From Lactobacillus sp. ESL0700 (GTDB lineage Bacteria; Bacillota; Bacilli; Lactobacillales; Lactobacillaceae): a stretch of 64,000 nucleotides of DNA. Positions 11,300 to 31,773 of this stretch are shown in pieces. The translations under genes were made by a program, and so were the position numbers. Numbering within the stretch: position 1 is the stretch's first letter; every line of letters starts with the position of its first letter. The stretch lies in the NCBI RefSeq assembly GCF_029392095.1, contig NZ_CP113930.1, forward strand, positions 1,240,001 to 1,304,000. Direction: 5' to 3'. A model generated the notes under the pieces. That model was not told where the DNA came from. It ran no database searches and worked only from the letters and a program-made list of their open reading frames with translations.

Positions 11300-11405
11300 T
11301 CCAAAAAATACTTAGACTCGCCAATCGGGGTGCTTTTTTAAAAAGACTTCTTACCTCGAAATGTGCGGTTGCAGATGTGGAGGTCTCCACAAATACAACT
11401 ACTTT
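11300..11405 (-). ncRNA. Ribosomal protein L21 leader (cis-regulatory RNA)
   Basis: The 5' untranslated region of rplU contains, on the minus strand, GGAGACCTCC, CTGCAACCGCACATTTCGAG, then a T/A stretch (TCTTTTTAAAAAA) before the ribosome site. Firmicute rplU messages commonly carry such an L21 leader, thought to let L21 control its own operon. The match is from memory of the motif; a covariance-model search (Rfam L21_leader) would settle it. Confidence 0.6.
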
Positions 11406-16306: not shown

Positions 16307-16342
16307 AGTTAATGTTCTGTGAAGGACAAACAAACATACAAT

Positions 16343-16416
16343 GGTCTGGTAGCTCAGCTGGATAGAGCAACGGTCTTCTAAACCGTGGGTCGTGGGTTCG
16401 AATCTCACCCGGATCA
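16343..16416 (+). tRNA. tRNA-Arg (anticodon TCT)
   Basis: A full cloverleaf can be drawn: acceptor GGTCTGG/CCGGATC with discriminator A, D stem GCTC/GAGC, anticodon stem ACGGT/ACCGT with loop CTTCTAA (anticodon TCT, reading AGA/AGG), a 5-base variable loop, and T stem GTGGG/CTCAC with TTCGAAT. The length is 74; CCA is not encoded. A promoter is upstream and a terminator directly downstream, so it is a single-gene unit. It borders an AT-rich accessory segment. Confidence 0.97.
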
Positions 16417-16424
16417 TTAAAAAG

Positions 16425-30998: not shown

Positions 30999-31004
30999 TA
31001 TAAT
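30999..31004 (+). promoter_or_regulatory. -10 element of the small hydrophobic-ORF locus
   Basis: A perfect TATAAT; the -35 is weak. Transcription would start near 31012, giving a message that begins with ACAGAACAGCTAAAG, part of which is complementary to its own 3' region. Between 30791 and this point I see only AT-rich upstream DNA. Confidence 0.5.
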
Positions 31005-31060
31005 ATTTATTACAGAACAGCTAAAGCTGGTGGCTATTTCTTTCAAAAGAGGTGGTGCTT

Positions 31061-31306
31061 ATGGTGTATTTACACCTAGCGCAAAATCCTAATGAAAGGA
31101 GGTTAGCCCTATACCTTTATGGGTATTGCACTTTTTATCTTGCGTTTAGCAATTATCTTTACAGTGGTAAGCTACTTGTTATCTTCTTTAACGAATGCGA
31201 CAAAGTCCTTAACTACCTGGATTATTGCTTTAGCAAGATTGTTTCTTGTAATCAAACTATTTTTTACGAGAAACAAAAAGTAATCACTTTAGCTTGGGAG
31301 AGCTAG
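31061..31306 (+). CDS. Possible upstream ORF overlapping the hydrophobic ORF (doubtful)
   Basis: An 81-residue reading frame from ATG 31061 with a proper ribosome site (AGAGGTGGTGCTT). It covers the second Shine-Dalgarno sequence (read as NERR) and overlaps the hydrophobic 54-residue ORF in another frame for its whole length. The N-terminal part (MVYLHLAQNPNERRLA) may be a short regulatory frame that couples translation; the Cys/Tyr-rich remainder looks like an out-of-frame shadow. It is listed because the ribosome site is real. Confidence 0.3.
   Translation: MVYLHLAQNPNERRLALYLYGYCTFYLAFSNYLYSGKLLVIFFNECDKVLNYLDYCFSKIVSCNQTIFYEKQKVITLAWES
31119..31283 (+). CDS. 54-residue hydrophobic peptide, candidate type I toxin
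   Basis: The ORF starts MGIALFILRLAIIF, contains two hydrophobic stretches (about 2-24 and 33-49) with a polar centre (SSLTNATKS), and ends in the basic tail FFTRNKK. Small membrane peptides with charged tails are typical of type I toxins. AGGAGG lies 15-16 bases upstream, an unusually long spacing, so translation may need RNA refolding. The 3' end overlaps the terminator of a convergent small RNA gene. It matches neither the Fst/Lpt peptide pattern nor a known holin-like toxin as I remember them. Confidence 0.5.
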   Translation: MGIALFILRLAIIFTVVSYLLSSLTNATKSLTTWIIALARLFLVIKLFFTRNKK

Positions 31307-31389
31307 TGATTACTCCATAATTACTACTTGCCACCACTTTAGCTAGTGGCTTCTGTAAGGAGTTCTATCGTAAGTAGAACTCCGTTTCT
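31272..31389 (-). ncRNA. Candidate antisense RNA, copy 1
   Basis: On the minus strand an extended -10 (TGCTACAAT, complement of 31396-31404) would start an RNA near 31389. It contains the stem GGAGTTCTA/TAGAACTCC, then GCCACTAGCTAAAGTGGTGGC, and ends with the hairpin AGTAATCACT/AGTGATTACT followed by TTTTGTTTC, an intrinsic terminator. The RNA, about 118 bases, is antisense to the 3' end of the hydrophobic-ORF message. Prediction only. Confidence 0.5.
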
Positions 31390-31392
31390 TTT
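31359..31392 (+). terminator. Terminator of the hydrophobic-ORF message (copy 1)
   Basis: GGAGTTCTA and TAGAACTCC form a 9-bp perfect stem followed by GTTTCTTTT. Confidence 0.7.
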
Positions 31393-31422
31393 GTTATTGT
31401 AGCACACATATTTTGAGAATAA

Positions 31423-31542
31423 AACAAAAAGTAATCACTTTAGCTTTGGCGAGTTAATGATTACTTTGTAAACATATTCTTTGCCACCACTTTAGCTAGT
31501 GACTTCTGTAAGGAGTTCTATTCCAAGTAGAACTCCTTTTCT
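31423..31542 (-). ncRNA. Candidate antisense-type RNA, copy 2
   Basis: The second repeat keeps the same elements: extended -10 TGTTACAAT (complement of 31549-31557), stem GGAGTTCTA/TAGAACTCC, the GCCAC/GTGAC-type hairpin and a terminal hairpin AGTAATCA/TGATTACT before TTTTTGTTTT. It has no partner ORF of its own and could act in trans on the copy 1 message. Confidence 0.45.
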
Positions 31543-31546
31543 CTTG
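31512..31546 (+). terminator. Second copy of the same terminator
   Basis: The same 9-bp stem with a different 7-base loop (TTCCAAG), followed by TTTTCTCTT. It serves any transcript reading through the first copy. Confidence 0.65.
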
Positions 31547-31773
31547 TTATTGTAACATATGTATTTTGATATTAGTATATATTTTTTAGGTATACTATAA
31601 TCTGTTATTGTCATATTTTTCGCTTGTAGCTATCTATAAAGAATAGCATCTATCGACTTTAAGACATAATATTCTTAATACAAATTCTTTTTTAAAAATA
31701 ATTGCTAACTCTACAGCCTTTCATCACTTATTGCTATAATTAATTATGATTACTATAAAAAGAAGGTACAAAA

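Follow-up and report, generated by a model that had tools for sequence, protein, structure and literature searches.

The window considered here is a stretch of 64,000 nucleotides from Lactobacillus sp. ESL0700, and the locus in question lies on the chromosome of this host, a genome of 2.04 Mb. The cassette spans window positions 31000-31404 and consists of an rli28-like leader, a 54-codon hydrophobic ORF and a convergent antisense unit; the neighbouring long ORFs presumably encode a 2-hydroxyacid dehydrogenase and an ArsC-like protein. The predicted toxin mRNA is preceded on the plus strand by the -10 hexamer TATAAT (30999..31004), recognised from the sequence together with a weak -35, and a UAUAAU occupies the same position in the Rfam rli28 consensus. 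The promoter scan of the window, in which promoter-like sites were at chance level (6 found, 5.3 expected), did not list this -10, which has no good -35. The 79 leaders used for comparison were picked with a rule that asked for a TATAAT-like -10, so its presence in them is no independent test.

The leader begins with the 5' strand of a long-distance 5'-3' helix (31011..31034, plus strand), defined by folding and by a covariation swap test. It overlaps GGCTATTTC (31032..31040, plus strand), which the swap test and constrained folding mark as the left strand of a helix covering the Shine-Dalgarno site, GGC being common to both helices. Further downstream on the same strand are the block most conserved among the aligned leaders, GGTGGTGCTTATGGTG (31050..31066), which includes the start of an upstream ORF, and the Shine-Dalgarno sequence AGGAGG (31097-31102) with the right strand of the covering helix, TTAGCC (together 31097..31108; sequence, swap test and folding). 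The ATG at 31119, 16 nt away from AGGAGG, lies at the loop of a start-codon hairpin (31110..31126, plus strand; folds and a swap test at 15 loci) and opens the 54-aa hydrophobic ORF, the predicted toxin (31119..31283, plus strand). The upstream ORF, of 81 codons (31061..31306, plus strand), overlaps the toxin ORF, and its body is not conserved. Next comes hairpin 1 (31279..31314, both strands; sequence and fold), with the arms AGTAATCACT/AGTGATTACT followed by T's on the minus strand, which is a 3' hairpin of the sense RNA and the predicted terminator of the antisense RNA. The 3' strand of the 5'-3' helix (31330..31357, plus strand; same tests as its partner) precedes the predicted intrinsic terminator of the toxin mRNA (31359..31394, plus strand; hairpin 31359-31383), found in a terminator scan that gave 2 terminator-like sites versus 0.4 expected.

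On the minus strand, a predicted antisense (antitoxin) RNA of about 119 nt (copy 1, 31271..31389), whose promoter and terminator were assigned by sequence and fold, is preceded by the extended -10 TGCTACAAT (TGnTACAAT, 31396..31404). A repeat search showed the 3' module to be present twice, at 31271-31421 and 31422-31574, with 94 nt at 87% and 44 nt at 91% identity. The second, leaderless module (31422..31574), a putative extra antitoxin copy, has its own extended -10 on the minus strand, TGTTACAAT (31549..31557), so that each copy carries one (31404-31396 and 31557-31549). Both predicted transcripts fold more stably than shuffled sequences, with z scores of -9.4 for the mRNA (31011-31394) and -5.1 for the antisense stretch (31274-31396). 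A sequence-only reading had already named a plus-strand -10, an ORF, a sense terminator and a minus-strand TGnTACAAT with its own terminator, and all elements it named are found in the sequence where it had placed them. The duplicated module lies within the bounds that this reading gave, and is absent from it. Elsewhere in the window, a ribosomal protein L21 leader (11304-11380, minus strand) and a tRNA-Arg(tct) (16342-16417, plus strand) are ordinary.

The 54-residue peptide

The sequence-only reading had let its claim stand or fall with the conservation of the 54-residue frame, and purifying selection was found: in the clearest pairs pN/pS is 0.11 (the window locus, L001, with L009) and 0.22 (with L010), versus 0.73-2.74 in the other two frames. 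Compared with L008 and L011 the value is 0.60 each on 3 changes, too few to judge, and with L024 the contrast between frames is weak (0.56 versus 0.63 and 0.83). The frame has the same length in five related loci from four genomes (L008, L009, L010, L011 and L024, L011 and L024 belonging to one genome) and encodes 55 aa in the more distant relative L013. Judged by these substitutions, the 54-aa ORF is selected as a protein, giving the locus the conserved small hydrophobic ORF typical of type I systems. That the overlapping 81-residue frame might be conserved instead, an alternative raised in the same reading, was tested and rejected: it has 15 codons in L013, 64 in L024 and 78-82 in L008-L011. 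L012 lies next to the start of the dehydrogenase-like gene that also adjoins the window locus (by eye), and the locus therefore appears syntenic there.

The peptide has a GRAVY of 1.20 and is predicted to form one helix (residues 3-53; pLDDT 85, pTM 0.40). A single-sequence search for protein homologues gave none, no Pfam family matched at E up to 10, and the Hol_Tox profile PF16935 did not match either. Both Pfam and NCBIfam hold Fst models; an assignment to Fst/Lpt was rejected, with no Fst-family match in Pfam and none above cut-off in NCBIfam, and the earlier impression that the peptide does not resemble Fst/Lpt is upheld. Twelve peptides of 52-55 aa from the ESL0700 genome and its relatives align as one set, and the matches of such peptides in Pfam and NCBIfam are all below cut-off. 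Those outside the window's own type (types C, F, G and H) are 8-33% identical to the window peptide, and a common descent with it is at most possible. A profile of the 12 peptides gave 16 matches, 11 of them in Lactobacillus sp. ESL strains, 2 in the ESL0700 genome itself and one in a JGI entry named 'phage-related holin'. As a predicted toxin, the 54-aa class without a Pfam or NCBIfam family appears to be new, and it adds a 52-55-aa predicted toxin class outside the copies of the two databases searched.

A peptide that is small, cationic and hydrophobic, with many variants in one genome, might also be a secreted or signalling, bacteriocin-like product of an antisense-tuned mRNA. This is highly improbable: the neighbouring long ORFs do not look like exporter or immunity genes, and Hol_Tox peptides are carried in the same RNA frame.

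Pairing of the mRNA ends and the proposed switch

The complementarity between the ends of the message that had been noticed earlier, AGCTAAAGCTGGTGGC (31019-31034) with GCCACCACTTTAGCT (31330-31344), is present in the sequence, and folding lengthens the pairing to 23 bp (31011-31034/31330-31357). The metastable 5'-3' closure proposed along with it is now backed by covariation across 41 loci. These, like the 39 aligned leaders, were chosen for diversity from the 79, with L019, L023 and L076 placed by hand; L019 and L076, both without an antisense anchor, are in the 41-locus set. In a swap test the loci's own strands pair at -32.4 kcal/mol versus -25.8 for permuted partners (sd 0.59, 0/5000, 41 loci), the 3' segment of L076 being cut by the alignment. 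Within the ESL0700 genome the values are -26.3 and -19.1 (0/5000, 12 loci), several 5' segments in this test ending at the model match. The test is alignment-free and took the place of a column-wise count, since in the MAFFT alignment A2 the outer pairs of the 5'-3' helix are one column out of register (by eye). Changes on both sides of the helix are exemplified by TACAGAA/TTCTGTA, GTAGAG/CTCTAC, AGCAAAC/GTTTGCT and GCACAGA/TCTGTGC.

The helix covering the Shine-Dalgarno site gives a smaller signal (11/5000 across the family), and that of the window is no better than swapped ones (-11.3 versus a row mean of -13.4). The start-codon hairpin covaries in the 52-55-aa class (15 loci, 1/5000). RNAalifold, applied to the leader alone, returned a weak and different structure.

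When the part of the message covered by the antisense RNA was masked in folding, the outer pairs of the covering helix rose on average from 0.32 to 0.83 over the 41 loci, and those of the window locus from 0.01 to 0.97. Counting changes above 0.1, the helix went up in 32 of the 41 loci and down in none, which means that in silico, releasing the 3' end lengthens the helix that hides the Shine-Dalgarno site, the behaviour that defines a switch of the BsrG/SR4 type in mechanism, not by descent. Masking the 3' helix strand alone suffices (0.84), while masking of the terminator has no effect (0.32), that of hairpin 1 alone gives 0.21 and with the ORF body masked the rise is partial (0.47); the 5'-3' helix itself is below 0.5 in 4 of the 41 loci. 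All these figures come from thermodynamic folding in which a crude mask stands in for the duplexes. Together with the GGC common to both helices, the masking result suggests that the mRNA and its antisense RNA form a switch of the BsrG/SR4 type, in which antitoxin binding extends the covering of the Shine-Dalgarno sequence from 4 to 8 bp (PMC6562991). The structure-gated translation that the sequence-only reading had suspected is likewise backed in silico, by the constrained folding and the start-codon hairpin analysis.

The switch may be envisaged as follows. During transcription the nascent 5' leader would fold with its Shine-Dalgarno site covered, and no toxin would be made. The finished mRNA would close its ends, take GGC from the covering helix and become a long-lived, weakly translatable message. 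The antisense RNA, by pairing with the last ~120 nt, would strip off the 3' strand and hand GGC back to the helix over the Shine-Dalgarno site; the duplex of the two RNAs would be cut by RNase III. Should the supply of antisense RNA fall, the peptide would be made and the membrane damaged. The second module (31422-31574) would serve as a spare antitoxin gene raising the antitoxin dose.

The comparison among loci covered the selection on the ORF, the pairing of the mRNA ends with its covariation, the overlapping Shine-Dalgarno helix and the conserved convergent -10, and it supports the type I toxin-antitoxin layout, with a predicted antisense RNA at the 3' end of the mRNA, that had been read from the sequence. 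The locus is real and probably functional, and it likely represents a type I toxin-antitoxin cassette in which a 54-aa membrane peptide is controlled by an mRNA/antisense switch.

Relation to rli28, RatA and other systems

The leader pattern GTGGTGCTTATGGTG combined with a Shine-Dalgarno site was found in 76 stretches of GTDB species genomes, 74 of them from Lactobacillales going by their titles, L051 and L104 looking like chance matches. Among 39 aligned leaders the block TGGTGCTTATGGT is nearly invariant and ATGGT is invariant (39/39). The upstream ATG is missing in one of the 79 leaders, and the upstream ORF has 2-5 codons in 63 of 78, in most loci reading M-V-stop or MVLNL-stop. No part of the cassette is better conserved than this mini-ORF with its block GTGGTGCTTATGGTG (window 31050-31066). 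A model of the leader matched 42 of 75 genomes of the genus (the own genome included) at E 0.001 or better, and 15 places in the ESL0700 genome. Cassettes also occur on plasmids, where that of L041 matches 353 of 72,556 records and 9 of the 10 listed matches are annotated 'putative holin-like toxin'; in the phage collection the window form was unmatched. Two further regions deserve mention. L153 (G049:C1:1570300-1575300, continuing to 1580402) holds nine weak leader matches that all point the same way, eight of which fall within 4 kb, and is possibly an array of whole cassettes; L152 (G051:C1:651000-654100), with four leader matches spaced at about 490-810 bases along a single strand, is apparently another cassette array.

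An Rfam scan at the gathering threshold missed the locus. The window leader scores 43.4 bits against rli28 (RF01492; E 5.6e-4, full-length match 1-186), for which the cut-off is 45, and the window's scores against RatA (RF01776), 24.9 (copy 1) and 30.0, are far below the cut-off of 49. Ten loci, paralogues and relatives, were scanned: four exceed the rli28 cut-off, the window's own (L172) not among them, two exceed that of RatA, and L015 is above both. Weak matches to the Rfam BsrG model, at 37.5, 23.0 and 19.6 versus a cut-off of 55, came from three loci, none of them the window locus. The claim that the locus is a new kind of type I system is therefore not borne out: the cassette is of a kind already known, its relatives, which occur across Lactobacillaceae, being rli28 and RatA of Rfam together with Hol_Tox peptides. 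What stays novel is the peptide; the RNA frame has diverged from one that is known.

The closest known system is rli28/RatA with a BsrH- or Hol_Tox-like ORF, found on Listeria plasmids and in lactobacilli. On Listeria plasmids rli28 and RatA lie on opposite strands and are both highly expressed, a BsrH-like ORF overlaps rli28, and this ORF with RatA was suggested, not proven, to be a type I system (PMC9484302). The order of leader elements (-10, GGTGGCTA, upstream AUG block, GAAAGGAG Shine-Dalgarno) and a 3'-end antisense RNA from the opposite strand, a predicted one in the window, are common to both; the window differs in scoring below both cut-offs, in carrying a 54-aa peptide without a family and in its doubled antitoxin module. 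With bsrG/SR4, bsrE/SR5 and txpA/RatA of Bacillus subtilis the cassette shares a 3'-overlapping antisense RNA, here a predicted one, a covered Shine-Dalgarno site and a small membrane peptide, and with bsrG/SR4 also the proposed refolding (PMC6562991); unlike in those systems, the window peptide matches no family, and the window is not among the weak BsrG matches. Fst/Lpt (par) resembles it in its small membrane peptide and its convergent toxin and antitoxin genes, which are predicted ones in the window. Fst uses direct repeats shared at the 5' ends, whereas the predicted window antisense RNA complements the 3' third of the mRNA, and the peptide has no Pfam or NCBIfam match above cut-off. As in dinQ/agrA-agrB of E. 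coli, where one toxin is accompanied by two small RNAs with antisense complementarity (PMC3567139), one predicted toxin here faces two predicted RNAs of antisense complementarity; the extra antitoxin of the window, unlike that of dinQ, repeats in tandem the 3' end of the toxin gene itself, and this arrangement recurs in several loci.

Publications on Listeria and L. casei have handled rli28 as an sRNA; here it is read as the mRNA of a toxin cassette. The reverse view, that the conserved element is a regulatory small RNA and the ORF within it incidental, draws on its cataloguing as an sRNA, on its study as such in L. casei Zhang (PMC8249650) and on a leader block that is nearly invariant while the peptides vary widely. 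It sits poorly with the purifying selection on the 54-aa frame, the covarying start-codon hairpin and the Hol_Tox PF16935 ORFs at two other loci of the same genome, and is judged very unlikely. In L. casei Zhang five rli28 copies are expressed, and knockout of one, rli28c, improved growth; the target sequence printed in that paper contains, on its reverse strand, the leader described here (by eye), and the toxin-cassette reading could explain the better growth of the knockout (PMC8249650).

Putative extra antitoxin modules and apparent exchange of cargo

Downstream of the toxin, an extended -10 TGnTAYAAT on the opposite strand was found in 60 of the 73 leader loci long enough (6 of the 79 leaders were too short and left out), with a search pattern that itself demands TGn. 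The looser TGnTAnAAT occurs in 36 of 3158 control windows of 60 nt (1.1%) and in 24 of 574 AT-rich ones (4.2%). In the ESL0700 genome the antisense -10 is present at 12 of the 15 loci, 316-399 nt from the leader start, and was not found at loci 5a, 5b and 8.

Extra leaderless 3' modules follow six of these 15 loci, the Hol_Tox locus having three, and 7 of the 8 extra modules keep the antisense -10; that of locus 1, which is only 48 nt at 79%, lacks it. A survey of 51 further loci, 2 of them too short, revealed an extra module in six, one of which (L046) has a leader; an antisense -10 lies next to four of the five leaderless extra modules, and none next to that of L077. Tandem arrangements of such putative antitoxin modules lacking a leader, with a single additional copy at the window locus and three at the Hol_Tox locus of the genome, appear to be new. 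The predicted pairing energy with the toxin mRNA is -157 kcal/mol for antisense copy 2 of the window, versus -232 for copy 1 and only -32 to -91 for 11 other first-copy antisense RNAs of the genome. With the 54-aa mRNA of a plasmid, copy 2 is predicted to pair at -158 (two controls, -51 and -54). For extra copy 12b the predicted pairing is stronger with an mRNA of the same type, that of locus 4 (-192), than with the mRNA of its own locus (-180). The extra copies may have been selected, or may protect against plasmids.

Signs of decay are also present. In G054 (L012) the leader and most of the toxin are gone, in L011 the sense terminator is missing, and loci 5a, 5b and 8, along with the extra modules of locus 1 and L077, are without an antisense -10; 5b and 8 are cut by unrelated sequence, and 5a runs into 5b. 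The cassette might accordingly be a decaying mobile toxin-antitoxin remnant without present function, its tandem 3' modules being neutral products of slippage. We regard this as unlikely, given that every element is kept in the window copy, the ORF is intact in the five related loci from four genomes (L008-L011 and L024) and 7 of the 8 extra modules of the genome keep their antisense -10. G054 was also considered as a working solitary antitoxin, an idea weakened by the loss of the TG in front of its otherwise intact -10 hexamer.

By eye, the 15 leaders of the ESL0700 genome precede about eight peptide types: the window's type (1), two Hol_Tox forms (1 and 2), an MDTVIAFG-type (3), a 29-aa type (4) and three others (1, 1 and 2). 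Hol_Tox PF16935 matches the peptides of L002 and L161, one of each form, with E values of 2.2e-15 and 1.3e-15. Plasmid NZ_CP113944.1 of Lactobacillus sp. ESL0681, whose source is Frieseomelitta varia (a stingless bee), carries three cassettes, one with the 54-aa peptide and two with Hol_Tox. Between the former and the latter two the promoter region is identical at 28/28 and 28/29 aligned nt and the antisense promoter at 47/47, the leader at 83-85% and the 3' helix strand with the terminator at 76-85%, versus only 47-50% between the Shine-Dalgarno sequence and the stop codon. Although the identical flanks are short, these cassettes are the clearest sign of cargo exchange, and similar exchange has been noted for bsrG loci in Bacillus (PMC6562991). 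With the same leader standing 15 times in one genome before about eight kinds of peptide, cells seem to exchange the toxin while retaining the switch. The 15 leaders with about eight peptide types in one genome, and the single plasmid with both 54-aa and Hol_Tox cargo, seem to be new; among open-licence literature no paper was found that deals with the 54-aa class, describes lactobacilli exchanging such cargo or reports arrays of antitoxin modules without a leader.

Tentatively, and with rather less confidence than the type I assignment, it can be proposed that the heritable unit is the RNA switch rather than the toxin, an rli28/RatA-like chassis spreading on chromosomes and plasmids of lactobacilli, with peptide cargo exchanged by recombination in the shared flanks and leaderless antitoxin modules collected by hosts to buffer dosage and to give immunity to versions of this cassette borne on plasmids. 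With 15 parallel leaders and about eight cargos, this one genome offers a testbed for antisense choice of toxin and for cargo exchange, and suits the question whether extra antitoxin copies protect against plasmid addiction.

The 29-aa peptide (VSGYEVATIV...), for which no Pfam match was found, follows the leader in L163, L164, L169 and L171 of the ESL0700 genome. A standard start codon is absent at the usual place in L164 and L171. L167 and L164 (loci 8 and 5b) are cut right after the toxin by a sequence resembling the end of an insertion element (by eye). In L163 and L169 the stop codon of the upstream ORF overlaps the GTG start of the toxin, which suggests that these toxins are translationally coupled to it.
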